Positions 37,149-62,117 of a DNA stretch of 64,000 bases are shown in pieces. The notes below the pieces were generated by a model, which was not told where the DNA came from, did no database searches, and saw only the letters and a program-made list of their open reading frames with translations. The position numbers and the translations under genes are program-made. Numbering within the stretch: the first letter of the stretch is position 1; each line of letters starts with the position of its first letter. Source of the stretch: Owenia fusiformis. Its lineage: Eukaryota; Annelida; Polychaeta; Sabellida; Oweniidae. The stretch lies in NCBI GenBank assembly GCA_903813345.2, contig CAIIXF020000011.1:12943754-13007753 (forward strand), written 5' to 3'.

Positions 37149-38000
37149 TCTAAAATACAGACCTACAAATGTGACCTAAGGATAAAATATATTCAATATC
37201 ATGTTAAAGTAAACAAAAAAAAGACCAATAAGAATAAGAGGTATCAAGATGTTCTCTTCAAGTATTGCATTGTGGGTGATTTTTCAAGAACAAATTCCAC
37301 TAAAAACATAATTTGTGGGAGAATGTTCACTTTCTGTATTGTCAAAATTATGATGAATTCCATTTTTATCAAATTATCAACATGTAGATAATCATGTTCT
37401 TATTTTTTGGAATGTGCACATTCTCCAATTTTGAAAAACAAGGCAATGCTTTTGTATGAAATATGGGAAGTTTCCTACTCTTCTAGTTGAAAGCAGCCCA
37501 TGCTATAACAGCAAAACTTTTGTTTTATTTGTGCATTCTCTCAGATAAGAGTCTAAGTGGTATGTAGGCAAATCCAATTTGGTAGGATTTAAACCTGAAA
37601 TATAAGAAATCTAAATAATATTGTGCAATAATATATAGAAAAATTTATTCATATAGCACACGAATGACATTTGTATATCTTGGATTGCTTGTAAATTGGC
37701 TCATAAAGTCTGTAACCTCTAATATTTTGATTCTTCTCTACCATGTTAATTTTCAAAGAAATAACATGGCAGACAGACCTCAAATTACAAGAGGACACAG
37801 GCTTATTGCACTAGACACTAAATAATCTGAAATATATAAAATGTCATTCTTGTGCAATATGAATATATTTTCTATATTATGGCACAATGGTCTATAGATT
37901 TCTTATTTTTCAGGTTCAACTGCTTGCCTTTGAAGCAGTGTAACCATGGGCTTTCTAGTTGAAAGCCCATGGTGTAACAGACTGTAATAGCATAGCATAT
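37149..38000. other. AT-rich intergenic stretch, no gene seen
   Basis: No convincing open frame or RNA signature. It contains a partial match (TCTAGTTGAAAGCAGCCCATG..., about 37482) to the hairpin sequence at 37944-37972, which suggests a diverged dispersed repeat. Confidence 0.6.
37944..37972. repeat. Perfect inverted repeat, 12-bp stem and 5-nt loop
   Basis: CCATGGGCTTTC-TAGTT-GAAAGCCCATGG. The arms are flanked by short direct repeats (GTGTAAC left, TGTAAC right). It lies 28 bp from the assembly gap. Confidence 0.85.
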
Positions 38001-38500
38001 NNNNNNNNNNNNNNNNNNNNNNNNNNNNNNNNNNNNNNNNNNNNNNNNNNNNNNNNNNNNNNNNNNNNNNNNNNNNNNNNNNNNNNNNNNNNNNNNNNNN
38101 NNNNNNNNNNNNNNNNNNNNNNNNNNNNNNNNNNNNNNNNNNNNNNNNNNNNNNNNNNNNNNNNNNNNNNNNNNNNNNNNNNNNNNNNNNNNNNNNNNNN
38201 NNNNNNNNNNNNNNNNNNNNNNNNNNNNNNNNNNNNNNNNNNNNNNNNNNNNNNNNNNNNNNNNNNNNNNNNNNNNNNNNNNNNNNNNNNNNNNNNNNNN
38301 NNNNNNNNNNNNNNNNNNNNNNNNNNNNNNNNNNNNNNNNNNNNNNNNNNNNNNNNNNNNNNNNNNNNNNNNNNNNNNNNNNNNNNNNNNNNNNNNNNNN
38401 NNNNNNNNNNNNNNNNNNNNNNNNNNNNNNNNNNNNNNNNNNNNNNNNNNNNNNNNNNNNNNNNNNNNNNNNNNNNNNNNNNNNNNNNNNNNNNNNNNNN
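38001..38500. other. Assembly gap (500 N)
   Basis: Exactly 500 N, probably a default-size scaffold gap of unknown true length. Open frames across it are meaningless. Confidence 0.99.
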
Positions 38501-41455: not shown

Positions 41456-44319
41456 CCCCGTCTATGAGATCCATAGTTGTCAGCTTCAAATGATCATTGA
41501 ATATGTTTGAGATACATAGTTGTCAGCTCAAAATAATCACTGTATAGCCTAATGTCTATGGTATCAATCATCCATACTTCTCAGCTTCAAATGATAAGTT
41601 AATTTTAATGAGATCCATGTTAGCTCCTGTATGTGTCTATGAGATCCATAGTCGTCATCTTCCAATGATCAAAATACATCTTTGAGATCCTTATCAGGAT
41701 CAACTCCTATTTGAGATCCATAGTTGTCAGCTCCAAATTATCACTGTATATGTCGATCCATCATCTGTATTTCACAGCGTCCAATGACCAGTGGATTTTA
41801 ATGAGATCCACGTAAGCTCCTGTTTATGTCTATGTGATCCATAGATGTCAGCGTCCAATGGTCACTGAGTATATCTATGAGATCCATAGTTGTCTGCTTC
41901 CAATGGTCACTAAATATATCTATGAGATCCATGTCAGCTCCTGTATGTGCCTATGGGATCCATAGTTCTCAGCTTCCAATGGTCACTAAATACTGTATAT
42001 CTATGAGATCCATGTCTGCTCCTGTATGTGTCTATGAGATCCATAGTTCTTAGCTTCCAATAATCACTGAATATGTTTGAGATCCTTATCACGATCAGCT
42101 CCTGTGTGTGTCTATGAGATCCATAGTTCTCAGCTTCCAATTGTCACTAAATACTGTATATCTATGAGATCCATGTCTGCTCCTGTATGTGTCTATGGGA
42201 TCCATAGTTCTCAGCTTCCAATGATCACTGAATATATCTATGAGATCCTTATCACGATCAGCTCCTGTATGTGTCTATGAGATCCATAGTTCTCAGCTTC
42301 AATGCAATGGTCACTAAATACTGTATATCTATGAGATCCATGTCTGCTCCTGTATGTGTCTATGGGATCATAGTTCTCAGCTTCCAATGATCACCGAATA
42401 TATTTATGAGATTCTTATCACGATCAGCTCCTGTACGTGTCTATGGGATTCATAGTTCTCAGCTTCCAATGGTCACTAAATATATCTATGAGATCCTTAT
42501 CACGGATCAGCTCCTGTATGTGTCTATGGAATCCATAGTTCTCAGCTTCCAATGGTCACTAAATATATCTATGAGATCCATGCCTGCTCCTGTATGTGTC
42601 TAAGGGATCCATAGTTCTCAGCTTCCAATGATCACTGAATATGTTTGAGATCCTTATCACGATCAGCTCCTGTATGTGTCTATGGGATCCATAGTTCTCA
42701 GCTTCCAATGGTCACTAAATATATCCATGAGATCCATGTCTGCTCCTGTATGTGGCTATGGGATCCATAGTTCTCAACTTCCAATGATCACTGAATATAT
42801 ATATGAGATCCCTATCACGATCAGCTCCTGTATGTGTCTATGGGATCCATAGTTCTCAGCTTCCAATGGTTACTAAATATATCCATGAGATCCATGTCAG
42901 CTCCTGTATGTGTCTATGGGAGCCATAGTTCTCAGCTTCCAATGGTCACTAAATATATCCATGAGATCCATGTCAGCTCCTGTATGTGTCTATGGGATCC
43001 ATAGTTCTCAGCTTCCAATGATCACTGAATATATCTATGAGATCCTTATCACGATCAGCTCCTGTATGTGTCTATGGGATCCATAGTTCTCAGCTTCCAA
43101 TGATCACTGAATATATCTATGAGATCCTTATCACGATCAGCTCCTGGATTTGTCTATGGGATCCATAGTTCTCAGCTTCCAATGGTCACTAAATATATCC
43201 ATGAGATCCATGTCACCTCCTGTATGTGTCTATGGGATCCATAGTTCTCAGCTTCCAATGATCACTGAATATATCTATAAGATCCTTATCACGATCAGCT
43301 CCTGTATGTGTCTATGGGATCCATAGTTCTCAGCTTCCAATGGTCACTAAATATATCCATGAGATCCATGTCAGCTCCTGTATGTGTCTATGGGATCCAT
43401 AGTTCTCAGCTTCCAATGATCACTGAATATATCTATGAGATCCTTATCACGATCAGCTCCTGTATGTGTCTATGGGATCCATAGTTCTCAGCTTCCAATG
43501 GTCACTAAATATATCTATGAGATCCATATCTGCTCCTGTATGTGTCTATAAGATCCATAGTTCTCAGCTCCCAATGATCACTGAGTATATCTACTAGATC
43601 CTTATCACGATCAGCTCATGTATGTGTCTATGGGATCCATAGTTCTCAGCTTCCAATGATCACTAAATACTGTATATCTATGAGATCCTTATCACGATCA
43701 GCTCCTGTATGTGTCTATGGGATCCATAGTTCTCAGCTTCCAATGGTCACTAAATATATATATGAGTTCGAGACGCGTGTGCTCCTTGCGTTTATTCATC
43801 TATGACATCCATGTCAGCTCCTGTATGTGTCTTTGGGATCCATAGTTCTCAGCTTCCAATGATGACTGAATATATCTACGAGATCCTTATCACGATCAGC
43901 TCCTGTATGTGTCTATGGGATCCATAGTTCTCAGCTTCCAATGGTCACTAAATATATATATGAGTTCGAGACGCGTGTGCTCCTTGCGTTTATTCATCTA
44001 TGATATCCATGTCAGCTCCTGTATGTGTCTTTGGGATCCATAGTTCTCAGCTTCCAATGATGACTGAATATATCTACGAGATCCTTATCACGATCAGCTC
44101 CTGTATGTGTCTATGGGATCCATAGTTCTCAGCTTCCAATGGTCACTAAATATATCTTTGAGATCCATATCTGCTCCTGTATTTGTCTATAAGATCCATA
44201 GTTCTCAGCTTTCAATGATCACTCGGAATATAGTGAGATCTATAGTTGTCATCTTCCAATGGTCACGATTAAAATATATCTATGAGATTTTTATCAAGTC
44301 AGCTCCTGTTTGAGATCTA
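41456..44319. repeat. Satellite block 2, alternating 82- and 76-bp units
   Basis: From about 42000 the array is regular. One unit type contains GAGATCCTTATCACGATCAG (82 bp) and the other GAGATCCATGTCAGCTCC (76 bp). Both share TCTATGGGATCCATAG, TTCTCAGCTTCC and AATGRTCACTRAATATATC. In several stretches (for example 43060-43500) they alternate, making a dimer of about 158 bp. Open frames here are short and repeat-derived. Confidence 0.92.
43764..44155. repeat. 198-bp tandem duplication inside satellite block 2
   Basis: GAGTTCGAGACGCGTGTGC occurs at 43764 and 43962, followed by matching sequence including CCTTGCGTTTATTCATC. That insert resembles the non-satellite sequence at about 39830, so a fragment of neighbouring DNA was captured and then duplicated with satellite units. 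Confidence 0.85.
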
Positions 44320-45313
44320 CAGGGCATATAAAAAAAACGCAACAAGTAGTTATCTCGTAAAATCACAAAACTAGTGATGACTACATCAATTTCATTCAAT
44401 GTACCATAAAGCCACGTCTCTCTTTGCAATGATATGTCATTCATTCACATGCGATAATGGTTGGGTGAGAAATCCTTCCATTTGCACAGTGGGTCAAAAT
44501 CTGCTCTGCGCCAAGTTTTAGATATTGAAAAAATCAGTGCAAGGGCTAAGTTCCAATGGAAGTTCCTCTTACTTGAATTGTTGTGACTTTTTCTTTTGGA
44601 GCTATCTCAGGAGCATATTCTGTGCTCACAATTTCTCCACCAGATATTGCAAAACCTCGAGAAAGAATTGCCAATGGGGTGCTTTTCTCTGCTTTAACCC
44701 ACAGATGACTCATGGCTAAACCATGCATGACGTGGACAGATGAGCGCATCTTTATGTGCAAGAAAGTGGTGGCAATTTGGAGGGGTATAGGATGTATTCT
44801 TGCAAGAGTATGAGTATAAACACTTAACTGTCTATGCCACACCTGTCACACCTTCTTCCAATAGCCCCTATGCCCCTTGTACTGACTTTTGCAATGTTTA
44901 AAACTTGGGTCCGAGCTGAATTTTGCCCCACTTTGCAAAATTAATGATTATTCGGCCAGAGATGACTCCCTGTGAATGAATGATATTCCATTGCAAAGAG
45001 GAGTAATTTGGCTTTTTGGTACATTGAATGAAAAGGATGCAGTCAGCATTGGTTTTATGTTTTCTTCCAATATTGCATCGGCCTCCGTACACTGACTTTT
45101 GCGATGTTTATAACTTGGCCCCAAGCTAATTTCGGCCCACTTTGCAAATGGAATGATTACTCGCCCAACCATGACCAAATATCAATGAATGATATATCAT
45201 TGTAAAGAGGAGACACAATGGCTTTATGGTTCATTGAATGAAATCAATGCTGTTATCACTGGTTTTGTGCCTTTTCGAGATCACAATGTGTTGCGTTTTT
45301 TTGATACGCCCTG
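44320..45313. mobile_element. 994-bp non-autonomous DNA transposon with TA target duplication and long inverted repeats
   Basis: The termini read CAGGGCATATA-AAAAAAACGCAA on the left and the complement of CAGGGCGTATC-AAAAAAACGCAA on the right. TA flanks both ends (44318-44319 and 45314-45315), as in the Tc1/mariner superfamily. The inverted similarity extends much further: 44320-44545 is an inverted, diverged copy of 45091-45313. A third copy of the same ~210 bp (44882-45090) lies in tandem next to the right arm. No transposase is recognised in the interior, so mobilisation in trans is inferred. It is inserted within the satellite and is absent from the paralogous block near 62100. Confidence 0.82.
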
Positions 45314-45670
45314 TATAGTTGTCCGCTCAAAATTATCACTGGATATGTCGATCCATCATCCATCTTTCACAGCGTCCAATGATCAATGGATTTTAATGAG
45401 ATCTATGTAAGCTCCTGTTTATGTCTATATGATCCATAGTTGTCAGCTTCCAATGAGACTGCTCCTGTTTGTGTTTATGGGATGATTGTCAGCTTCCAAT
45501 GGTCACTGAATATATCTACGAGATCCATGTCTGCTCTTATATTTGTCTATTGGATCCATAGTTCTCAGCTTCCAATGATCACTGAATATATCTACGAGAT
45601 CCTTATCACGATCAGCTCCTGTATGTGTCTATGAGATCCATCGTTCTCAGCTTACAATGATCATGGTATA
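45314..45670. repeat. Satellite block 3, continuation after the transposon
   Basis: Diverged GATCCATAG / CAGCTTCCAATG units resume directly after the TA and end at about 45670. Confidence 0.8.
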
Positions 45671-47760
45671 ATATAGCAACGTCAACTCGATCATTGAATA
45701 TGAAAGTCTACCTAAGGTAGCTATTTTTGGATTTTCCGTCCTGAACGCTGTCTTATTAATTAATTACTGGCTTATTAATTTTCTATGTTCTTCAGTGATA
45801 TTTTCTCATTGTGCAAAAGTTGTAAAAGTAATTCTGAGCACACTATAGCCTAAAAAATATTTTTTGGATGCCATATATTATGCTCGATGTTTCAATAGTA
45901 CTCTTTTGCAATGTTTCTGTGCCTCTAATTTTTTCTAATCTGGGCACAGATAAATGGCACTTTTTGAGAAATGAAATTCAAATAATATTGAATTAGTTTT
46001 AAAATATTGAAAGTTGCTTTGTTTCTAATACTGTAGAAAATGCAATGACATCATTATTGCTATGTTAAATAATTTTTGAACAGATTGAATTCCCATTCCA
46101 ACATGCTTTATTTCATAAAGATCAAGACACTATTGACTATTTTATGAATTTTAAAAAGTACACTACAATTTCACATATTCGTGAATCGCGTTCTCTTATA
46201 CGAATTTGAAAGAAAAAGTTTTTTTCTTCTTCCTGATGATATGGATGAATGCCTTTGCAATTTTTGTGCATGTTCCGTAATGCTCAGACAACATCTTACC
46301 GAATCACTTATTGTTATTGATATTACTTCTTGAAATATGAATGTTAAAGACATAAACAACTTGAAATTGTTGATTATTCTATTTCGCGTTCCATTGATTT
46401 CATTGAGTTTTGGCGATACATGGTACATCCTATCCTTAAAGTACAACTTCAGTTCTGAAAAGCTATTATCTGGATTTTATTTCATTTGAAACATAAACGA
46501 TTATTATTTAAGGAAATATAGCATTTTTGGCACCCCTTAAGTCACGTTGACCTCAATTTGACATTTTTGGAGGGGGTGGGAGGTTATTTGGTCTTGCGAT
46601 ATAGTGTTATAAAAAGGTTGCAGACATTTGCGTTAATTGTATCATTGATTACGAATATGTTTCTTTCAATCGATTGATCATATTAGTTTCTTAATCTGTA
46701 TTGTCGTATTACATGTGTACACGATGGAATCAGACAATAATATGTATCTCAATTCAACTATTCAGAAATCGTTAAAATCCCTCAATGTTCAGAGGCCGGC
46801 ATAGCCAGCTTTAGGGGAGGGGTGCGATCGCTAAAACAATTTCGGTCTTCAGTCAGGGGGGTTGCGATTGCAGCATAACAAGCCCAAAATAAGATTTATT
46901 TGAATTTTACAAAAATTGATGCGACCCAGAGCTAGAAGCTTCAAATAAAAAGCATTTTAAAGCTCCTTTCTTCTTCATTCTCATGGTTTTATTGGTTATG
47001 GGGGGATGCATCCATCGCAACCCCCTGGCTACGCGTATGATGTTATCTGGAAAGTCGTCTATATCGTTCGAGAAAAATAACATTTACATTAGAAAAGTGA
47101 GAATGAGTTGTGTCAAGATTTAAAAGATCGACTTTCCATGGTGATTTTATATAATGAAAACATTCGAACATTTTAAGCACATTAGAAAGGTATTGCCATA
47201 AAAATACGTTTTACGAACATAAAATAGGCGTTTTGATATAGAAGATTTGACACAATATGTTTTGGCCTAGGGTATTGTTATCGCCCACGTGTTTGTTCAT
47301 CCCTCTGTCTGTCTATTAACATATTGTTTCTTGTAATTAGTTCGAAATACTCAACAATTGATGAATTCACTCTTAAAATGTGTCCAGCTGAAAGTCTTTG
47401 GCGTCCCCATGCCCCAACCCCCTGGCTCCGTCAGTGTGGTGTCAACTGCTGACAACGTTGTTCAACCGCAAGATTTCAATACACAAGTAGTCTAGTAGTT
47501 GTGGGGTTGATTTGAAAATCCTACCCGACATTTATGGGGTTAAACTCCCACAAGTATTCTATCAATTTGCTTGAAATTGCTTTCAAAGTTAGCTCGACTA
47601 ACCCCCGGGGACTAACCAAGTACTTGAACAAAAATTATTATATTGACCAAAGTTCATATGCAAAAAAACTTTAATTATTCTTAGCTGCTATAAAAATATT
47701 GAAAGTTCAAATCTTCCAATGTGAACTCAATACTCATGAAGGGACATAATTTTTTGGTTG
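45671..47760. repeat. Segmental duplication, left copy (non-satellite part)
   Basis: Sequence such as GGCTATTTTTGGATTTTCCG (written with GTAGC in this copy) and GAATCGCGTTCTCT is matched in order at 62140-63910 with many substitutions. About 290 bp present here (roughly 47215-47510) is missing from the right copy. I see no convincing gene: the longest frame (46171-46446, minus) is unsupported and is not kept in the right copy. Confidence 0.88.
46797..47036. mobile_element. MITE-like element, about 240 bp, left copy
   Basis: It starts ATAGCCAGC...GGGGTGCGATCGC and ends with CATCGCAACCCCCTGGCTACGC, so the ends are imperfect inverted repeats around GCGTAGCCAG / GGGGTGCGAT. No coding capacity. 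A paralogue lies at 63260-63512. Confidence 0.5.
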
Positions 47761-47810
47761 GCCTGCCTCTTTTGTTTAAAAATGAATTGTACTTTAATTA
47801 CACCATGAAA

Positions 47811-47881
47811 GCACTGATGGTTCAGTGGTAGAATGCTAGCCTGTCATCCGGCTGGCCATGGGTCGATTCCTGGTCAGTGCA
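47811..47881 (+). tRNA. tRNA(Gly)-derived repeat, isolated copy 1 (pseudo-tRNA)
   Basis: 71 nt, the usual length of metazoan tRNA-Gly. The acceptor stem GCACTGA/TCAGTGC pairs perfectly. The A box TGGTTCAGTGG is intact and the B box is GGGTCGATTCC. The anticodon loop reads CTGTCAT (GTC), with a mismatched anticodon stem. A T5 run follows at +4. It is followed ~145 bp later by a second copy and then by 2 kb of unrelated sequence. Confidence 0.7.
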
Positions 47882-47955
47882 ATGTTTTTCATTTAAATAC
47901 TCATATGAAGAGAAACTACATCTTTCATGAATTATACTTTACTTACAGAAGGAAA

Positions 47956-48028
47956 GCATTGATGGTTAGTGGTAGAATGCTCGCATGCCATCCAGCTGGC
48001 CATGGGTCGATTCCTGCTGGTCAGTGCA
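47956..48028 (+). tRNA. tRNA(Gly)-derived repeat, isolated copy 2 (pseudo-tRNA)
   Basis: A diverged copy: A box TGGTTAGTGG lacks one base, the anticodon region is changed (GCATGCCATCC), and CTGCTGGTCAG has a small insertion. A T5 run still follows. Confidence 0.6.
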
Positions 48029-48059
48029 ATGTTTTTCATTTAAAGATACTCTATTGAGA

Positions 48060-50129
48060 CTGCTCTGTGGCATTTTTTCTTTATTCCTTTTTGTTTTGAA
48101 TTTTTAACACCATAACATTAACTAACTAGTCAATATGCAACTTTTCACCACGTAGAATTTTAAAATATTAAGTTTGAAAATTCCATTTTTATAATGGAGC
48201 TCAATGGGAAAAACTACATAATTTGAATTATTTTCAAACGTAGCGGCGCGATTTTGATAAAATTGACAGATATAATAAATATTGGTAAGACGAAATGTTT
48301 GATGAAAAATGAAGAAAATTCACCGTCCTGGTTACGCAAACTATAGAAAAATCTGAAATAATCATAAAAACCTGTAAAAATAGATTGAAGGGGGTGATAT
48401 TCATTTCTAATGTGCCTTTCACTACTACAGGGTAACCATAATTTTGGTACTGATTTGATTTTTCAATGAAAATCATTTCTATAGTGTATAGTCAGTTTAA
48501 ATAATACAATTGCTATATTTCTTTACTGAACAGTGCAATTATTTATTTATTTATCAACAGTAATGCAAACTACATATTATACAGTTAGTAAAATATTAAA
48601 ATAATTCTATTAAAATTAAAGCATTGAGATGATACTTAAATAATTACATATTATATTGATAGGCATATTATATTATAGGATTTAAGCCAATGACTCAATG
48701 CATTGTAGATGATTAAATTTAACATATGTCCTGATTCTAGACTATGAACGAGGGTGGTAGTCCAAATTCAAAGCCTAGACTAGAAGACATAAGTGAATTG
48801 AAGCATCCACTATTCATTGAATCATGTGCTTTAATTCAATTTCACACATTGCAAAATATTTTTTACAATTTCACTTAACAGAATGATATTTTTTCAAAGA
48901 TATGTTGTACTTTTAGAATCATTTGCTTCAAAGAATTGAACTATGGCGGCCTTTACTCGTTATTTTACGATTTTTGCTGTAACTCGAAAAGTAGTCGAGC
49001 AATTTTGTTTATATTTGGTATATGAATACTATAAGCATGGCACACTGTCTAATGACACTTTTGGTAGAAGGCAGCCATTTTGAAAAATGGCCGTCATTTT
49101 AACGTATTTTACTATAACTCGAAAAGTAGTAGAGCGATTTTGTTCATATTTGATGCGTGAATACTATAAGCGTGGCACACTGTCTAATGACACTTTTGGT
49201 AGAAGGTGGCCATTTTGAAAAATGGCTGCCATTTTTGCTGTATACTTTGTTTGTAAAAAAAATGCCAGCCATGGCTGTTCGATGGGATTTGCTACACTTT
49301 GGTGTTGCTGTTGTCTAGTTGAAGGATGGATGGACGGACAAATGGAGGGGTCTCTTAGCTTATCCCCTAATCTTCGTTGGATTGAACAATTGTGAATATG
49401 GTTTGTTGGACAAATAAAACTGATTGAATGTCTAAAAGCAAATAATGAAGTGGTAATTTATTTAAAATCATTAAAATCTCAAACATGCTTGCTTTGGTCT
49501 AGTCACTTAATTCCTAAATGTCCCGTAATTAGTATCTATATACCTTATTAGATGCAGTGAAGGAGTTAAATCATTGGGATATGAATAAATCATGCAAAAC
49601 ATATTTTGTACATATTTCTCATCATTTAGGGTTACCCAGTAGTTTACAAGCTGACCTTTGCAAAATATATTTCACTTACTATCCTCATTCGCTATCACGC
49701 TATCTAGTTTCTTTCCAAATTGGCCTGAATTGCCTGGTTTATTGGTTTTAGCGAACCGTCCGTTTCGTCGAACCATCATTTTGCTAAGGTTGTTTGTGAT
49801 GAATATACAATATTCAGTTACATATAACTGTACAGCAACTTTATGCAAGGGAAGGTAATTGTGTGAGAGCACATAAAGTACACGAAGTATTGACCCACTT
49901 GTCTCAGTGAATCTTATAAACAGTGCATAAAGTTTTTTCTATGCAATGATTGGCTCACAGTTACTTATAGTGTAAGTTATTTTATTTCTATACAGTGTGG
50001 AATAGAGTGTATAAACTTTTACAGTTTCAAGCAGGTTTTAGTGTTTTCTGACCAATGATATATTCAGACTTATTCATTTCACGATTATGTAATACTGACC
50101 TACATATCTGTATAGCATATCTTTAAATA
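48060..50129. other. AT-rich stretch between tRNA-like copies, no gene seen
   Basis: No recognisable gene. Short frames (48234-48476 minus, 49557-49751 plus) have no supporting motif. It contains a 135-bp tandem duplication (48960-49235, listed separately) and ATTTATTTATTTATC near 48540. Confidence 0.55.
48960..49235. repeat. 135-bp tandem dimer with AAAATGGC palindromic ends
   Basis: AACTCGAAAAGTAGT occurs at 48981 and 49116. GGCACACTGTCTAATGACAC and TTTTGGTAGAAGG also recur. Each copy ends in CCATTTTGAAAAATGGC. It is probably part of a dispersed repeat. Confidence 0.85.
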
Positions 50130-50907
50130 CTAATATGAAGAGAAATTACAATTTTTATGAATTATATTTTAGGGACAACATGAAAGCCCTGATGGTTCAG
50201 TGGTAGAGTGCTCGCCTGTCATCCAGCTCGCCATGGGTCGATTCCTGGTCAGTGCAATGTTTTTCATTTAAATACTAATATGAAGAGAAATAACTATTTT
50301 TATGAATTATATTTTACTTATAACATGAAATCACTGATGGCTCAGTGGTAGAATGCTCGCCTGTCATCCAGCTGGCCATGGGTGGATTCCTGGCCAGTGC
50401 AATGTTTTTCATTTAAATACTAATATGAAGAGAAATTACAATTTTTATGAATTATATTTTAGGGACAACATGAAAGCCCTGATGGTTCAGTGGTAGAATG
50501 CTCGCCTGTCATCCAGCTCGCCATGGGTCGATTCCTGGTCAGTGCAATGTTTTTCATTTAAATACTGATATGAAGAGAAATTACAATTTTTATGAATAAT
50601 ATTTCAGGGACGACCTGAAAGTACTGATGGTTCAGTGGTAGAATGCTCGCCTGTCATCCAGCTGGCCATGGGTCGATTCCTGGTCAGTACAATGTTTTTC
50701 ATTTAAATACTAATATGAAGAGAAATTACAATTTTTATGAATTATATTTTAGGGACAACATGAAAGCCCTGATGGTTCAGTGGTAGAATGCTCGCCTGTC
50801 ATCCAGGTCGATTCCTGGTCAGTGCAATGTTTTTCATTTAAATACTAATATGAAGATAAATTACATTTTTAATGAATTATATTTTACTTACAACATGAAT
50901 GCACTGA

Positions 50908-50918
50908 TGGTTCAGTGG
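50908..50918 (+). promoter_or_regulatory. Pol III A box (representative unit)
   Basis: TGGTTCAGTGG, identical to the A box of tRNA-Gly genes and kept in nearly every unit of the array. Confidence 0.7.
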
Positions 50919-50949
50919 TAGAATGCTCGCCTGTCATCCAGCTCGCCAT

Positions 50950-50960
50950 GGGTCGATTCC
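50950..50960 (+). promoter_or_regulatory. Pol III B box (representative unit)
   Basis: GGGTCGATTCC, one mismatch from the GGTTCGANTCC consensus. The ATAGTTCAATTCC class of units has a different one-base departure. Confidence 0.65.
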
Positions 50961-50974
50961 TGGTCAGTGCAATG

Positions 50975-50979
50975 TTTTT
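50975..50979 (+). terminator. Pol III T5 terminator (representative unit)
   Basis: TTTTT begins four bases after the end of the tRNA-like head and recurs at the same place in almost every unit. Confidence 0.6.
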
Positions 50980-53900
50980 CATTTAAATACTAATATGAAG
51001 AGAAATTACATTTTTAATGAATTATATTTTACTTACAACATGAATGCACTGATGGTTCAGTGGTAGAATGCTCGCCTGTCATCCAGCTGACCATAGTTCA
51101 ATTCCTGGTCAGAGCAATGTTTTTCATTTAAATACTAATATGAAGAGAAACTACATCTTTTATGAATTATACTTTACTTTCAACATGTAAGCATTGATGG
51201 TTCAGTGGTAGAATGCTCGCCTGTCACACAGCTGGTTATGGGTCGATTCCTGGTCAGAGCAATGTTTTTCATTTAAATACTAATATGAAGAGAAACTACA
51301 TCTTTTATGAATTATACTTTTCTTTCAACATGAAATCAATGATGGTTCAGTTGTAGAATGCTCGCCTGTCATCCAGCTGACCATAGTTCAATTCCTGGTC
51401 AGTGCAATGTTTTTCATTTAAATACTAATATGAAGAAAAACTACATCTTTTATGAATTATACTTTACTTTCAACATGTAAGCACTGATGGTTCAGTGGTA
51501 GAATGCTCGCCTGTCATCCAGCTGGCCATGGGTCAATTCCTGGTCAGTGCAATGTTTTTCATTTAAATACTAATATGAAGAGAAATTACAATTTTTATGA
51601 ATTATATTTTAGGGACAACATGAAAGCCCTGATGGTTCAGTGGTAGAATGCTCGCCTGTCATCCAGCTGACCATAGTTCAATTCCTGGTCAGTGCAATGT
51701 TTTTCATTTAAATACTAATATGAAGAGAAACTACATCTTTTATGAATTATACTTTACTTTCAACATGAAAGCCCTGATGGTTCAGTGGTAGAATGCTCGC
51801 CTCTTGTGCAGCTGGCCATGGGTCGATTCCTGGTCAGAGCAATGTTTTTCATTTAAATACTAATATGAAGAGAAATTACAATTTTAATGAATTATATTTT
51901 ACTTACAACATGAATGCACTGATGGTTCAGTGGTAGAATGCTCGCCTGTCACACAGCTGGTTATGGGTCGATTCCTGGTCAGAGCAATGTTTTTCATTTA
52001 AATACTAATATGAAGAGAAACTACATCTTTTATGAATTATACTTTACTTTCAACATGTAAGCATTGATGGTTCAGTGGTAGAATGCTCGCCTGTCACACA
52101 GCTGGTTATGGGTCGATTCCTGGTCAGAGCAATGTTTTTCATTTAAATACTAATATGAAGAGAAATTACAATTTTCATGAATTATATTTTACTTACAACA
52201 TGAATGCACTGATGGTTCAGTGGTAAAATGCTCGCCTGTCATCCAGCTGACCATAGTTCAATTCCTGGTCAGTGCAATGTTTTTCATTTAAATACTAATA
52301 TGAAGAGAAACTACAATTTTTATGAATTATACTTTACTTTCAACATGAAAGCCCTGATGGTTCAGTGGTAGAATGCTCGCCTCTTGTGCAGCTGGCCATG
52401 GGTCGATTCCTGGTCAGAGCAATGTTTTTCATTTAAATACTAATATGAAGAGAAATTACATTTTTAATGAATTATATTTTACTTACAACATGAATGCACT
52501 GATGGTTCAGTGGTAGAATGCTCGCCTGTCATCCAGCTGACCATAGTTCAATTCCTGGTCAGTGCAATGTTTTTCATTTAAATACTAATATGAAGAGAAA
52601 CTACAATTTTTATGAATTATACTTTACTTTCAACATGAAAGCCCTGATGGTTCAGTGGTAGAATGCTCGCCTGTCATCCAGCTCGCCATGTGTCGATTCC
52701 TGGTCAGTGCAATGTTTTTCATTTAAATACTAATATGAAGAGAAATTACATTTTTAATGAATTATATTTTACTCACAACATGAATGCACTGATGGTTCAG
52801 TGGTAGAATGCTCGCCTGTCATCCAGCTGACCATAGTTCAATTCCTGGTCAGAGCAATGTTTTTCATTTAAATACTAATATGAAGAGAAACTACATCTTT
52901 TATGAATTATACTTTACTTTCAACATGTAAGCATTGATGGTTCAGTGGTAGAATGCTCGCCTGTCACACAGCTGGTTATGGGTCGATTCCTGGTCAGAGC
53001 AATGTTTTTCATTTAAATACTAATATGAAGAGAAATTACATTTTTAATGAATTATATTTTACTTTCAACATGAATGCACTGATGGTTCAGTGGTAGAATG
53101 CTCGCCTGTCATCCAGCTGACCATAGTTCAATTCCTGGTCAGAGCAATGTTTTTCATTTAAATACTAATATGAAGAGAAACTACATCTTTTATGAATTAT
53201 ACTTTACTTTCAACATGTAAGCATTGATGGTTCAGTGGTAGAATGCTCGCCTGTCACACAGCTGGTTATGGGTCGATTCCTGGTCAGAGCAATGTTTTTC
53301 ATTTAAATACTAATATGAAGAGAAACTACATCTTTTATGAATTATACTTTACTTTCAACATGAAATCAATGATGGTTCAGTTGTAGAATGCTCGCCTGTC
53401 ATCCAGCTGACCATAGTTCAATTCCTGGTCAGTGCAATGTTTTTCATTTAAATACTAATATGAAGAGAAACTACATCTTTTATGAATTATACTTTACTTT
53501 CAACATGTAAGCACAGATGGTTCAGTGGTAGAATGCTCGCCTGTCATCCAGCTGGCCATGGGTCAATTCCTGGTCAGTGCAATGTTTTTCATTTAAATAC
53601 TAATATGAAGAGAAATTACAATTTTTATGAATTATATTTTAGGGACAACATGAAAGCCCTGATGGTTCAGTGGTAGAATGCTCGCCTGTCATCCAGCTGA
53701 CCATAGTTCAATTCCTGGTCAGTGCAATGTTTTTCATTTAAATACTAATATGAAGAGAAACTACATCTTTTATGAATTATACTTTACTTTCAACATGTAA
53801 GCATTGATGGTTCAGTGGTAGAATGCTCGCCTGTGATCCAGCTGGCTATGGGTCGAATTCTGCTCAGTGCAATGTTTTTCATTTAAATACTAATATGAAG

Positions 53901-56900
53901 AGAAATTACAATTTTTATGAATTATATTTTAGGGACAACATGAAAGCCCTGATGGTTCAGTGGTAGAATGCTCGCCTGTCATCCAGCTGGCCATGGGTCG
54001 ATTCCTGGTTAGTTCAATGTTTTTCATTTAAATAGTGATATGAAGAGAAATTACAATTTTTATGAATTATATTTTAGGGACAACATGAAAGCCCTGATGG
54101 TTCAGTGGTAGAATGCTCGCCTGTCATCCAGCTCGCCATGGGTCGATTCCTGGTCAGTGCAATGTTTTTCATTTAAATACTGATATGAAGAGAAATTACA
54201 ATTTTTATGAATAATATTTCACGGACGACCTGAAAGTACTGATGGTTCAGTGGTAGAATGCTCGCCTGTCATCCAGCTGGCCATGGGTCGATTCCTGGTC
54301 AGTACAATGTTTTTCATTTAAATACTAATATGAAGAGAAATTACAATTTTTATGAATTATATTTTAGGGACAACATGAAAGCCCTGATGGTTCAGTGGTA
54401 GAATGCTCGCCTGTCATCCAGCTCGCCATGGGTCGATTCCTGGTCAGTGCAATGTTTTTCATTTAAATACTAATATGAAGAGAAATAACATTTTTAATGA
54501 ATTATATTTTACTTACAACATGAATGCACTGATTGTTCAGTGGTAGAATGCTCGCCTGTCATCCAGCTGACCATAGTTCAATTCCTGGTCAGTGCAATGT
54601 TTTTCATTTAAATACTAATATGAAGAGAAACTACATCTTTTATGAATTATACTTTACTTTCAACATGTAAGCACTGATGGTTCAGTGGTAGAATGCTCGC
54701 CTGTCATCCAGCTGGCCATGGGTCAATTCCTGGTCAGTGCAATGTTTTTCATTTAAATACTAATATGAAGAGAAATTACAATTTTTATGAATTATATTTT
54801 AGGGACAACATGAAAGCCCTGATGGTTCAGTGGTAGAATGCTCGCCTGTCATCCAGCTGACCATAGTTCAATTCCTGGTCAGTGCAATGTTTTTCATTTA
54901 AATACTAATATGAAGAGAAACTACATCTTTTATGAATTATACTTTACTTTCAACATGTAAGCATTGATGGTTCAGTGGTAGAATGCTCGCCTGTCATCCA
55001 GCTGGCTATGGGTCGATTCCTGCTCAGTGCAATGTTTTTCATTTAAATACTAATATGAAGAGAAATTACAATTTTTATAAATTATATTTTAGGGACAACA
55101 TGAAAGCCCTGATGGTTCAGTGGTAGAATGCTCGCCTGTCATCCAGCTGGCCATGGGTCGATTCCTGGTTAGTTCAATGTTTTTCATTTAAATACTGATA
55201 TGAAGAGAAATTACAATTTTTATGAATTATATTTTAGGGACAACATGAAAGCTTGATGGTTCAGTGGTAGAATGCTCGCCTGTCATCCAGCTCGCCATGG
55301 GTCGATTCCTGGTCAGTGCAATGTTTTTCATTTAAATACTGATATGAAGAGAAATTACAATTTTTATGAATAATATTTCAGGGACGACCTGAAAGTACTG
55401 ATGGTTCAGTGGTAGAATGCTCGCCTGTCATCCAGCTGGCCATGGGTCGATTCCTGGTCAGTGCAATGTTTTTCATTTAAATACTGATATGAAGAGAAAT
55501 TACTCTTTTATGAATTATATTTTGCTTACAACATGAAAGCACTGATGGTTCAGTGGTAGAATGCTCGCCTGTCATCCAGCTGCCCATGGTTCAATTCCTG
55601 GTCAGTGCAATGTTTTTCATTTAAATACTAATATGAAGAGAAATTACAATTTTTATGAATTATATTTTAGGGACAACATGAAAGCCCTGATGGTTCAGTT
55701 GTTGAATGCTCGCCTGTCATCCAGCTCGCCATGGGTCGATTCCTGGTCAGTGCAATGTTTTTCATTTAAATACTAATATGAAGAGAAATTACATTTTTAA
55801 TGAATTATATTTTACTTACAACATGAATGCACTGATGGTTCAGTGGTAGAATGCTCGCCAGTCATCCAGCTCGCCATGGGTCGATTCCTGGTCAGTGCAA
55901 TGTTTTTCATTTAAATACTAATATGAAGAGAAATTACATTTTTAATGAATTATATTTTACTTACAACATGAATGCACTGATGGTTCAGTGGTAGAATGCT
56001 CGCCTGTCATCCAGCTGACCATAGTTCAATTCCTGGTCAGTGCAATGTTTTTCATTTAAATACTAATATGAAGAGAAATTACATTTTTAATGAATTTTAT
56101 TTTACTTACAACATGAATGCACTGATGGTTCAGTGGTAGAATGCTCGCCTGTCATCCAGCTGACCATAGTTCAATTCCTAGTCAGTGCAATGTTTTTCAT
56201 TTAAATACTAATATGAAGAGAAACTACAATTTTTATGAATTATACTTTACTTTCAACATGTAAGCGCTGATGGTTCAGTGGTAGAATGCTCGCCTGTCAC
56301 ACAGCTGGTTATGGGTCGATTCCTGGTCAGTGCAATGTTTTTCATTTAAATACTAATATGAAGAGAAATTACAATTTTTATGAATTATATTTTAGGGACA
56401 ACATGAAAGCCCTGATGGTTCAGTGGTAGAATGCTCGCCTGTCATCCAGCTGGCCATGGGTCGATTCCTGGTCAGTGCGATGTTTTTCATTTAAATTCTG
56501 ATATGAAGAGAAATTACTATTTTCATGAATTATATTTAACTTACAACATGAAATCACTGATGCTTCAGTGATACAATGCTCGCCTGTCATCCAGTTGACC
56601 ATGGGTCGATTCCTGGTCAGTGCAATTTTTTTCATTTAAATACTGATATGAAGAGAAATTACAATTTTAATGAATAATATTTCAGTGACGACCTGAAAGT
56701 TGATGGTTCAGTGGTAGAATGCTCGCCTGTCATCCAGCTGGCCATGGGTCGATTCCTGGTCAGTGCAATGTTTTTCATTTAAATACTAATATGAAGAGAA
56801 ATTACAATTTTTATGAATCATATTTTAGGGACAACATGAAAGCCCTGATGGTTCAGTGGTAGAATGCTCGCCTGTCATCCAGCTCGCCATGGGTCGATTC

Positions 56901-59900
56901 CTGGTCAGTGCAATGTTTTTCATTTAAATACTAATATGAAGAGAAATTACATTTTAATGAATTATATTTTACTTACAACATGAATGCACTGATGGTTCAG
57001 TGGTAGAATACTCGCCTGTCATCCAGCTGACCATAGTTCAATTCCTGGTCAGTGCAATGTTTTTCATTTAAATACTAATATGAAGAGAAACTACATCTTT
57101 TATGAATTATACTTTACTTTCAACATGTAAGCACTGATGGTTCAGTGGTAGAATGCTCGCCTGTCATCCAGCTGGCCATGGGTCAATTCCTGGTCAGTGC
57201 AATGTTTTTCATTTAAATACTAATATGAAGAGAAATTACAATTTTTATGAATTATATTTTAGGAACAACATGAAAGCCCTGATGGTTCAGTGGTAGAATG
57301 CTCGCCTGTCATCCAGCTGACCATAGTTCAATTCCTGGTCAGTGCAATGTTTTTCATTTAAATACTAATAAGAAGAGAAACTACATCGTTTATGAATTAT
57401 ACTTTACTTTCAACATGTAAGCATTGATGGTTCAGTGGTAGAATGCTCGCCTGTCATCCAGCTGGCCATGGGTCAATTCCTGGTCAGTGCAATGTTTTTC
57501 ATTTAAATACTAATATGAAGAGAAATTACAATTTTTATGAATTATACTTTACTTTCAACATGTAAGCACTGATGGTTCAGTGGTAGAATGCTCGCCTGTC
57601 ACACAGATGGTTATGGGTCGATTCCTGGTCAGTGCAATGTTTTTCATTTAAATACTAATATGAAGAGAAATTACAATTTTTATGAATTATATTTTAGGGA
57701 CAACATGAAAGCCCTGATGGTTCAGTGGTAGAATGCTCGCCTGTCACACAGCTGGTTATGGGTCGATTCCTGGTCAGTGCAATGTTTTTCATTTAAATAT
57801 TATATGAAGAGAAACTACATCTTTTATGAATTATACTTTACTTTCAACATGTAAGCATTGATGGTTCAGTGGTAGAATGCTCGCCGCTTGTGCAGCTGGC
57901 ATGGGTCGATTCCTGGTCAGAGCAATGTTTTTCATTTAAATACCAATATGAAGAGAAATTACAATTTTTATGAATTATATTTTAGGGACAACATGAAAGC
58001 CCTGATGGTTCAGTGGTAGAGTGCTCGCCTGTCATCCAGCTGGCCATGGGTCGATTCCTGGTCAGTGCGAGGTTTTTCATTTAAATTCTGATATGAAGAG
58101 AAATTACTATTTCCATGAATTATATTTTACTTACAACATGAAATCACTGATGGTTCAGTGATAGAATGCTCGCCTGTCATCCGGTTGACCATGGGTCGAT
58201 TCCTGGTCAGTGCAATTTTTTTCATTTAAATACTGATATGAAGAGAAATTACAATTTTTATGAATAATATTTCAGGGACGACCTGAAAGTACTGATGGTT
58301 CAGTGGTAGAATGCTCGCCTGTCATCCAGCTGACCATGGGTCGATTCCTGGTCAGTGCAATGTTTTTCATTTAAATACTAATATGAAGAGAAATTACAAT
58401 TTATATGAATTATATTTTAGGGACAACATGAAAGCCCTGATGGTTCAGTGGTAGAATGCTCGCCTGTCATCCAGCTCGCCATGGGTCGATTCCTGGTCAG
58501 TGCAATGTTTTTCATTTAAATACTAATATGAAGAGAAATTACATTTTTAATGAATTATATTTTACTTACAACATGAATGCAGTGATGGTTCAGTGGTAGA
58601 ATGCTCGCCTGTCACCCAGCTGACCATAGTTCAATTCCTGGTCAGTGCAATGTTTTTCATTTAAATACTAATATGAAGAGAAACTACATCTTTTATGAAT
58701 TATACTTTACTTTCAACATGTAAGCATTGATGGTTCAGTGGTAGAATGCTCGCCTGTCATCCAGCTGGCCATGGGTCAATTCCTGGTCAGTGCAATGTTT
58801 TTCATTTAAATACTAATTTGAAGAGAAATTACTATTTTCATGAATTATATTTTGGGGACAACATGAAAGCCCTGATGGTTCAGTGGTAGAATGCTCGCCT
58901 GTCACACAGCTGGTTATGGGTCGATTCCTGGTCAGTGCGATGTTTTTCATTTAAATACTAATATGAAGAGAAATTACTATTTTCATGAATTATATTTTAC
59001 TTACAACATGAAATCACTGATGGTTCAGTGATAGAATGCTCGCCTGTCATCCAGTTGACCATGGGTCGATTCCTGGTCAGTGCAATTTTTTTCATTTAAA
59101 TACTGATACGAAGAGAAATTACATTTTTTATGAATTATATTTTACTTACAACATGAAATCACTGATGGTTCAGTGGTAGAATGCTCGCCTGTCATCCAGC
59201 TGCCCATGGTTCAATTCCTGGTCAGTGCAATGTTTTTCATTTAAATACTGATATGAAGAGAAATTACTATTTATATGAATTATATTTTACTTACAACATG
59301 AAAGCACTGATGGTTCAGTGGTAGAATGCTCGCCTGTCATCCAGCTGGCCATGGGTCGATTCCTGGTTAGTTCAATGTTTTTCATTTAAATACTGATATG
59401 AAGAGAAATTACTATTTTTATGAATTATATTTTACTTACAACATGAAATCACTGATGGTTCAGTGATAGAATGCTCGCCTGTCATCCAGCTGCCCATGGT
59501 TCAATTCCTGGTCAGTGCAATGTTTTTCATTTAAATTCTGATATGAAGAGAAATTACTATTTTATGAATTATACTTTACCTTCAACATGTAAGCACTGAT
59601 GGTTCAGTGGTAGAATTCTCGCCTGTCATCCAGCTGGCCATGGGTCAATTCCTGGTCAGTGCAATGTTTTTCATTTAAATTCTGATATGAAGAGAAATTA
59701 CTATTTTTATGAATTATATTTTACTTACAACATGAAATCACTGATGGTTCAGTGATAGAATGCTCGCCTGTCATCCAGCTGCCCATGGTTCAATTCCTGG
59801 TCAATGCAATGTTTTTCATTTAAATTCTTATATGAAGAGAAACTACATCTCTAATGAATTATACTTTACCTACAACATGTAAACACTGATGGTTCAGTGG

Positions 59901-60027
59901 TAGAATGCTCGCCTGTCATCCAGCTGGCTATGGGTCGATTCCTGGTCAGTGCAATATTTTTCATTTAAATAAGGTTATGAAGAAAAATTACATCTTTTAT
60001 AAATTATACTTTAGTTACAACATGAAA

Positions 60028-60099
60028 GCATGGATGGTTAAGTGGTACAATGCTAACCTGTCATCCATCTGGCTGTGGTTCGAGTCCCTGGTTAGTGCA
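60028..60099 (+). tRNA. Diverged edge copy of the tRNA-like repeat with consensus B box
   Basis: The head reads GCATGGATGGTTAAGTGG, and the B box GGTTCGAGTCC matches the consensus exactly, unlike the interior units. A T5 run follows. It lies at the right margin of the array, where homogenisation is expected to be weakest. Confidence 0.55.
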
Positions 60100-60173
60100 A
60101 TGTTTTTCATTTAAATACTGATATGAATAGAAATTACTATTTTTATGAATTATATTTTAGTTACAACATGAAA

Positions 60174-60230
60174 GCACTGATGGTTCAGTGGTAGAATGCT
60201 AACTTGTCATCCAGTTTTACTGGGTTGATT
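60174..60230 (+). pseudogene. Truncated last tRNA-like copy
   Basis: It starts GCACTGATGGTTCAGTGG, then degenerates after GCTAACTTGTCATCC and loses the T arm. Duplicated Region 3 sequence begins immediately afterwards. Confidence 0.65.
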
Positions 60231-60879: not shown

Positions 60880-62117
60880 TAGTATGTCTATGGCTATGAT
60901 CCATAGTTCTCAGCTTCCAATGATCACTGAATATTTCTATGAAATCTATGTAAGCTCCTGTATGTGTCTATGAGATCCATAGTTGTCAGCTGCCAATGAC
61001 TCCAATGATCACTGAATATATCAATGAGATCCATGTAAGCTTATGTATGTGTATATCCCGGTGTCTATGAGGATCACCTTATTATACCGATGCGCATTGT
61101 ACCGAAAACCTGTATACCTACACCATATTTTTGATGAAAAAAGGCTTGTAATGGAAGATGTATGATAAGAGAACATTTAGCTTTTTATTAAATTGCTTCC
61201 TGTTTATGTCTATGTGATCCATAGTTGTCAGCTTCCAAAGGTCACTGAACATACATGTGTCTATGAGATCCATGTCTGCATCTGTATGTGTCTATGGGAT
61301 CCATAGTTCTCAGCTTCCAATGATCACCGAATATATCTATGAGATCCTTATCACGATCAGCTCCTGTATGTGTCTATGGGATCCATAGTTCTCAGCTTCA
61401 ATGCAATGGTCACTAAATACTGAATATCTATGAGATCCATGTCTGCTCCTGTATGTGTCTATGGGATCCATAGTTCTCAGCTTCCAATGATCACTGAATA
61501 TATCTATGAGATCCTTATCACGATCAGCTCCTGTGTGTGTCTATGAGATCCATAGTTCTCAGCTTCAATGCAATGGTCACTAAATACTGTATATCTATGA
61601 GATCCATATCTGCTCCTGTATGTGTCTATGGGATCATAGTTCTCAGCTTCCAATGATCACCGAATATATCTATGAGATCCTTATCACAATCAGCTTCTGT
61701 ATGTGTCTATGAGATCCATAGTTCTCAGCTTCAATGCAATGGTCACTAAATACTGTATATTTATGAGATCCATGTCTGCTCCTGTATGTGTCTATGGGAT
61801 CGTAGTTCTCAGCTTCCAATGATCACCGAATATATCTATGAGATCCTTATCACAATCAGCTTCTGCATGTGTCTATGAGATCCATAGTTCTCAGCTTCCA
61901 ATGATCACCGAAAATATCTATGAGATCCTTATCACAATCAGCTCCTGTATATGTGTCTATTGGATCCATAGTTCTCAGCTTTCAATGATCACTGAATATA
62001 TCTACAGTATATGAGATCCTTATCACAATCAGCTCATGTATGTGTCTACGAGATCCATAGTTCTCAGCTTTCAATGATCACTCGGAATATAGTGAGATTC
62101 ATAGTTGTCATATTTCA
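60880..62117. repeat. Satellite block 4 (82/76-bp family, right copy)
   Basis: The same unit types as at 41456-44319 (GATCCTTATCACGATCAG and GATCCATGTCTGCTCC), including the CAGCTTCAATGCAATGG variant also found at about 42300. It is shorter and interrupted at 61075-61190 by the left end of the inverted-repeat element. Confidence 0.88.

Follow-up and report, generated by a model that had tools for sequence, protein, structure and literature searches.

Location and extent of the array

The window analyzed in this study is a stretch of 64,000 bp (positions 12943754-13007753 of contig C11) from a genome of 498 Mb in 525 contigs. It contains a main satellite array on the plus strand at 50122..60214, which is composed of 70 units of approximately 145 bp and was delimited by Tandem Repeats Finder and core matches. 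Tandem Repeats Finder reported a period of 145, 69.7 copies, and 90% matches for this interval, and a mismatch scan with a 36-base core found 70 cores between 50191 and 60179, all of them on the plus strand, with a core-to-core spacing of 135-146 bp. No core was found on the minus strand of the main array with up to 12 of 36 mismatches allowed. The first-pass annotation had described about 70 tandem units, and both the number and the tandem organization are borne out, with two outlying units to be added.

These two units lie at 47784..48044 on the plus strand (cores at 47816 and 47960), and the outlying unit at 47811-47881 scores 34.2 bits with the Rfam tRNA model. Based on the core scan and the alignment of the junctions, we place the start of the array at about 47784, upstream of 50122. 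The units at this 5′ start are separated from the main array by an insertion of 2,077 bp (48045..50121, no strand assigned) with TTTAAA at both edges. Both junctions of the insertion align to the unit, and the array breaks off and resumes at the identical point of the linker; the whole is read as a single array of 72 units that the insertion would have interrupted. The ends of the insertion, GATACTC and GCATATC, show an inverse match over GATA only, and its interior contains a 135-bp tandem pair at 48958-49235. No clear higher-order repeat was detected in the window array, in which identity stays between 0.89 and 0.92 at lags 1-30. Head-to-tail arrays of this unit are long, with 70 units here, and occur at many places on C2 and C11, as expected of a satellite.

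Other repeats surround the array. A composite repeat of about 5 kb occurs several times in positions 1-37000 of the window, always with long 19-bp minisatellites, and a 187-bp part of this repeat is 83-86% similar to sequence by the 3′ end of the C11 array at 13.38 Mb. A run of 500 N, either a gap or a withheld stretch, lies near 38000-38500. A tandem repeat with periods of 76, 82, and 158 bp flanks the tRNA satellite on both sides (41874-45663 and 61194-62091) and is also found about 2 kb from the C11 array at 13.40 Mb (L022:3055-3201). Just right of the window (L029:2005-2090), a tRNA-like stretch with an exact B-box consensus was seen by eye on the minus strand.

Structure of the repeat unit

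The unit, which is tRNA derived and carries A and B boxes, consists of a 71-bp part related to tRNA-Gly(GCC) and a 74-bp AT-rich linker that starts with ATGTTTTT. The A box, TGGTTCAGTGG, is exact in 59 of the 70 main-array units and in 15 of the 15 array or cluster consensuses that we made. The B-box consensus is RGTTCRANTCC, and the units agree with it without mismatch in 21/70, with one mismatch in 45/70, and with more in 4/70. A T5 run is present in 69/70. In 55 of the 69 complete window units, the exact A box occurs together with a B box that has at most one mismatch and with a run of at least four Ts after the tRNA part; a T4 within the first 66 bases occurs in none of the 69.

The stems are kept to very different degrees. 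Among the 69 complete aligned units, the D stem is full in 65 and the acceptor stem is fully paired in 23, and neither the anticodon stem nor the T stem is fully paired in any (0/69 for each). The anticodon triplet is GTC in 65/69, CTT in 3/69, and GTG in 1/69, so that the glycine anticodon GCC does not occur. With the Rfam tRNA model, 37 main-array units and one outlying unit reach the gathering score of 29 bits, with a range of 29-44, and the top unit of the window (44 bits) lies at 55539..55609 on the plus strand. One example is the tRNA-related part at 52496..52566 on the plus strand (36.3 bits with the same model), which has a paired acceptor stem, an A-box-like TGGTTCAGTGG at 52503..52513, a B-box-like AGTTCAATTCC at 52545..52555, and, 3′ of the tRNA-related part, a T5 run at 52570..52574, all on the plus strand. 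This part folds no better than its shuffles (z -0.70). Functional tRNA-Gly(GCC) genes were considered as a candidate for the array and rejected: the cloverleaf is incomplete, the anticodon is not GCC, and the score lies below that of intact genes.

These counts qualify the anatomy given in the first-pass annotation. Its statement that each unit keeps an exact A box was too strong, and its T5 terminator holds for every unit except one. The near-consensus B box (at most one mismatch in 66/70), the fully paired acceptor stem in many units, and the degraded anticodon and T stems agree with our results. Scoring of the units with a tRNA model, which it had named as a check, divides them into the 37 main-array units that pass the gathering score and the rest that fall below it.

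Distribution and homogenization of the satellite

The genome-wide search that the same annotation had recommended was run with a 35-base core pattern and gave 990 matches with at most two mismatches; the reversed control gave 0. The 100 matches listed of these 990 all lie in clusters on C2 and C11. Further arrays were located on C11 at 9.93-10.08, 12.90-12.93, 13.38-13.40, 13.51, and 15.28-15.30 Mb and on C2 at 9.98-10.01 Mb, and related subfamilies occur on C2 at 11.23-11.29 and 14.03-14.10 Mb and on C11 at 8.27 and 11.86 Mb. Most arrays were fetched in part, and figures taken from the matches are to be read as "at least." The pattern of the old subfamily gave 39 matches, all in one array. 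In this older subfamily (L006/L007, C11 11.8585-11.8705 Mb), the anticodon stem is fully paired in 38/53 units and the anticodons are varied. Both sides of the C2 10.0 Mb array (L025 and L026, C2 9.979-9.982 and 10.010-10.013 Mb) carry a different common repeat with 72-85% identity.

For the comparison of arrays, 453 complete units were aligned, after 28 units with the next unit absent or at a distance of <125 or >165 bp had been dropped (1/70 in the window array), together with units cut by a locus end and the loci L002 and L003, which overlap L005. Homogenization was examined in 362 units from seven arrays, a set that leaves out the gene clusters, the old subfamily, and that of C2 14.1 Mb. 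The nearest neighbor of a unit lies within its own array in 77% of cases versus 16% expected, and the set contains 51 identical unit pairs within arrays and 0 between arrays. The units are homogenized array by array.

The 5′ flank of the array in the window (45533..47700, plus strand; blastn and genome search) recurs beside other C11 arrays at 94-96% identity and is common to four C11 arrays. The parts matched by blastn are 46492-47700 at C11 12.93 Mb, 45533-47593 at 13.40 Mb, and 46401-47700 at 15.28 Mb. The copies at these three arrays occur in both orientations, each with the array following, and the junction between flank and array is identical at all three, whereas that of the window is shorter by about 40 bp. 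Three of the nine flank pieces fetched share this 5′ flank, and the other six, including 3′ sides, are without it. When 46500-47700 was used as the query, the first 763 of its 1201 bases also matched repeats on C1, C3, C6, C12, and elsewhere, mostly at 81-92%, and matches of the full-length query at 94-96% were restricted to C11. From the recurrence of the flanks beside the C11 arrays, we infer that these arrays seem to have moved together with their flanks.

Relationship to tandem tRNA-Gly(GCC) genes

A search with a tRNA-Gly(GCC) pattern found 56 places at no more than two mismatches, of which 23 are exact. The exact places include tandem gene clusters, and some of the places with two mismatches are satellite units. 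The cluster at C7:34.7045-34.7072 Mb (L004) has 18 core matches that are 133-254 bp apart; 9 of its 17 spacings are 146-147 bp, and the others are 133, 142, or 254 bp. Intact copies are intermixed in it with several deletion-bearing copies, and it is possibly an early stage of satellite-type decay. The cluster at C2:29.323-29.328 Mb has 20 core matches, with 10/19 spacings of 149-150 bp. Copies scoring 50-66.7 bits account for 11/18 core matches in the C7 cluster and 13/20 in the C2 cluster. Satellite units score at most 45.1 bits in eight array loci (L006-L008 and L010-L014; the scan left out L009, L016-L018, and L028) and at most 44 in the window. All 15 complete C7 units have an exact A box and a full acceptor stem, and the RNA of a C7 gene folds better than its shuffles (z -2.65). 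A single tRNA-Gly(GCC) gene elsewhere lies about 1 kb from a U1 snRNA gene (L001:348-511, 157.9 bits).

The C7 cluster resembles the satellite throughout the unit. The unit consensus of the C7 cluster is 147 bp long and that of the young satellite arrays 145 bp, and the tRNA part of the satellite is identical to the gene at 59/71 positions. One acceptor pair, G7-C in the gene, is A7-T in the satellite consensus, a change on both sides that preserves the pairing. The satellite linker and the C7 spacer are identical at 55/72 aligned bases, with a score of 67.3 (z 7.8), whereas 1000 composition shuffles averaged 16.9 and reached at most 38.5. Since gene, spacer, and unit length agree, the satellite unit corresponds to a tRNA-Gly gene unit, and, to judge from these alignments, it is the whole gene-plus-spacer unit that turned into satellite. 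The spacer of the C2 29.3 Mb cluster has no recognizable homology to the linker (z 1.5), and the case for descent therefore depends on the C7 cluster, which is either the parent or a sister of the satellite. Used as a genome query, the C7 spacer gave 20 matches, all on C7, which indicates that this search was too insensitive for the diverged satellite linkers. The glycine-tRNA origin proposed in the first-pass annotation is thus supported and now has an explanation in the tandem tRNA-Gly gene cluster.

Conservation of the Pol III signals

When heterozygosity was ranked over 11-base windows, the A box stood at 26 among the 145 windows of the window array and at 25 in the seven arrays pooled, and the B box stood at 97 and 110. 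The B box varies as much as the linker. The exact 11-mer of the A box is retained at 0.84 in the window array, where the linker windows have a median of 0.54 and a maximum of 0.90. Of 56 linker windows, 9% do equally well, and the A box is slightly favored by the way in which units were detected, since the 26-base core used for this purpose (up to 7 mismatches allowed) overlaps it. The spacing of the window array is unbroken, so no unit of the main array was lost to this core-based detection. The corresponding retention of the B box is 0.54, which 50% of the linker windows match; owing to variation at two positions of the box, it drops to 0.07 in the seven arrays pooled, a value lower than that of any linker window. 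At 1.00, the window of the T run is part of the best-kept stretch of the window array, which extends into the linker. In the old array at C11 11.86 Mb, the A box reaches 0.91, above all 56 linker windows. The better keeping of the A box than of the linker could reflect weak selection. Rare alleles per site among the 362 units amount to 1.73 in the A box, 1.18 in the B box, and 0.95-1.00 in the linker, so that the boxes are not depleted of rare variants. The first-pass annotation had set its functional suggestion against the conservation of the two boxes relative to the linker: this comparison weakly favors the A box and goes against the B box, as about 50-60% of the linker windows of the window array are equally well kept. 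Its wording of about 70 Pol III-type transcription units thus goes further than the sequence shows.

The changes between gene and satellite were also examined with regard to CpG sites. The window consensus differs from the gene at 12/71 sites, and 7 of the 12 are among the 14 CpG nucleotides of the gene; the A box contains no CpG. Outside CpG, 5/57 sites are changed, with 1/20 in the boxes (P 0.42), and the avoidance of the boxes in the other three related consensuses gave P values of 0.17, 0.10, and 0.42, in a test of low power with only 4-9 changes per consensus and with consensuses that share ancestry. Without the CpG correction, P was 0.011 and 0.008 for two of the four consensuses, in which box avoidance looked real, and 0.057 and 0.082 for the other two. 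The observed/expected ratio of CpG is 0.31 in the window, and most arrays are depleted too; the depletion is not genome-wide, with ratios of 0.93-1.29 in some fetched loci.

No covariation of the acceptor stem was detected in the window array (p 0.60, with pairing equal to that in 200 permutations per array). A p of 0.03, uncorrected for several arrays, was obtained for one of the seven young arrays, that at C2 10.0 Mb, and the old array gave p 0.08. Three unit RNAs folded no better than their shuffles (z -0.70, -0.05, and +0.35). For the old array at C11 11.86 Mb, the consensus forms a long hairpin that beats its shuffles (z -2.20), and the pairing of this hairpin is 0.894 versus 0.889 in the permuted data (p 0.007), with only 4 double-changed cells, too few to claim. 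On the sequence evidence, the boxes are best read as inherited, and selection on them is not clearly apparent; for the A box and terminator, weak selection is possible.

Discussion

As far as can be judged from its sequence, the array is a real satellite that derives from tandem tRNA-Gly genes and carries what appear to be relic Pol III signals. Very probably, the satellite consists of decayed tandem tRNA-Gly gene units that were amplified and homogenized, with boxes that are mostly relics. We suggest that a tRNA-Gly(GCC) gene multiplied together with its spacer into a tandem row, such as C7 still shows, and that a copy of such a gene cluster was released from selection as tRNA. The units would then have decayed through the loss of the T and anticodon stems, the change of the anticodon from GCC to GTC, and the loss of CpG sites, while unequal exchange or gene conversion probably went on multiplying and homogenizing the 145-bp unit. 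Larger duplications that included flanking DNA may then have carried the arrays to other places on C11 and to C2. Both boxes and the T run would be mostly inherited relics that are presumably not in use now.

It could also be proposed that the units are transcribed or bind TFIIIC for chromatin, with the boxes under selection and the fold dispensable. Such transcription or TFIIIC binding is possible: 55/69 units combine an exact A box, a near B box, and a T4 or longer run with no internal T4 in any of the 69, and the A box belongs to the best-kept 9% relative to the linker windows, ranks top in the old array, and is exact in all 15 consensuses. However, the B box ranks only 97 of 145 and its pooled consensus occurs in only 7% of the units, rare alleles are more frequent in both boxes (1.73 and 1.18) than in the linker (0.95-1.00), and avoidance of the boxes outside CpG is no better than chance (P 0.42, 0.17, 0.10, and 0.42). 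The stems of the window array also lack covariation, and three RNAs fold like shuffles. We therefore regard a functional Pol III satellite as unlikely. The broader form of this proposal is improbable. In it, the satellite would have gained a new function after its tRNA role was lost: roughly 1,000 units with A and B boxes on two chromosomes would act as putative massed TFIIIC/Pol III sites that organize chromatin or give a satellite small RNA, and the A box and terminator would be selected in whole arrays and not in individual units.

Tandem amplification of a tRNA-headed SINE would likewise give units with a tRNA-related head and A and B boxes, as in the satellites of scaled reptiles described in part of PMC10702118. 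This origin is very unlikely, considering that the linker shares homology with the spacer between genuine tRNA-Gly genes in tandem, that the 100 core matches listed of 990 are all clustered, and that 39/39 matches of the old subfamily lie in one array. It is hardly conceivable that the units are functioning tRNA genes, whether or not their anticodon was altered to GUC on a glycine body. Although 37/70 units pass the Rfam gathering score and the GTC triplet is shared by 65/69, a fully paired anticodon or T stem occurs in 0/69, ARAGORN (bacterial code) calls none, and the scores of 29-44 compare with 50-66.7 in the better tandem-gene copies. We thus return to decayed tandem tRNA-Gly gene units as the preferred origin of the satellite.

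The birth of a satellite from a tandem tRNA cluster can be traced here, as a cluster with intact genes, related subfamilies, and decayed arrays are present in one genome. The case lets the silence, transcription, or TFIIIC binding of hundreds of tandem relic Pol III promoters be tested. No description of this satellite was recognized in the open-licence literature searched, which says little. Satellites of this kind are already known, and what is added is the traceable origin from a gene cluster.

Several known systems share features with the satellite. According to the parts of PMC2652664 that concern them, the Entamoeba arrays also consist of tandem tRNA genes that are homogenized, probably by concerted evolution, but there is no clear evidence in those parts for nonfunctional copies, whereas the anticodon and T stems are kept in 0/69 units here. 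Tandem tRNA duplicates occur in many plants, where they likewise reflect local duplication of tRNA genes; the clusters described in the relevant part of PMC12652284 contain up to 26 identical genes, in contrast to the decayed units here, of which there are 70 in the window array. The SINE-derived satellites of scaled reptiles, as presented in part of PMC10702118, resemble the satellite in having tRNA-related promoter parts in tandem units. Unlike them, the satellite has no dispersed copy among the matches listed, and its linker matches a tRNA gene spacer.

In kind, the closest known relatives appear to be the amphibian tRNA-related satellites such as OAX and PolIII/TAN, at least among the families covered by the pertinent part of PMC10702118, namely, OAX of Xenopus, PolIII/TAN of the newt Cynops, Rana/polIII, and Hy/polIII. 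As in the satellite, their tandem units contain a tRNA-related segment, which is doubted there for Hy/polIII, and transcription of PolIII/TAN is reported there to be possible in vitro. Their units are longer, about 200, 250, and 360 bp for the three families with a stated length, compared with 145 bp here. The origins of these families are treated as uncertain in that part of the source, whereas here a tandem tRNA-Gly cluster with a homologous spacer and a near-equal unit length is found in the same genome.
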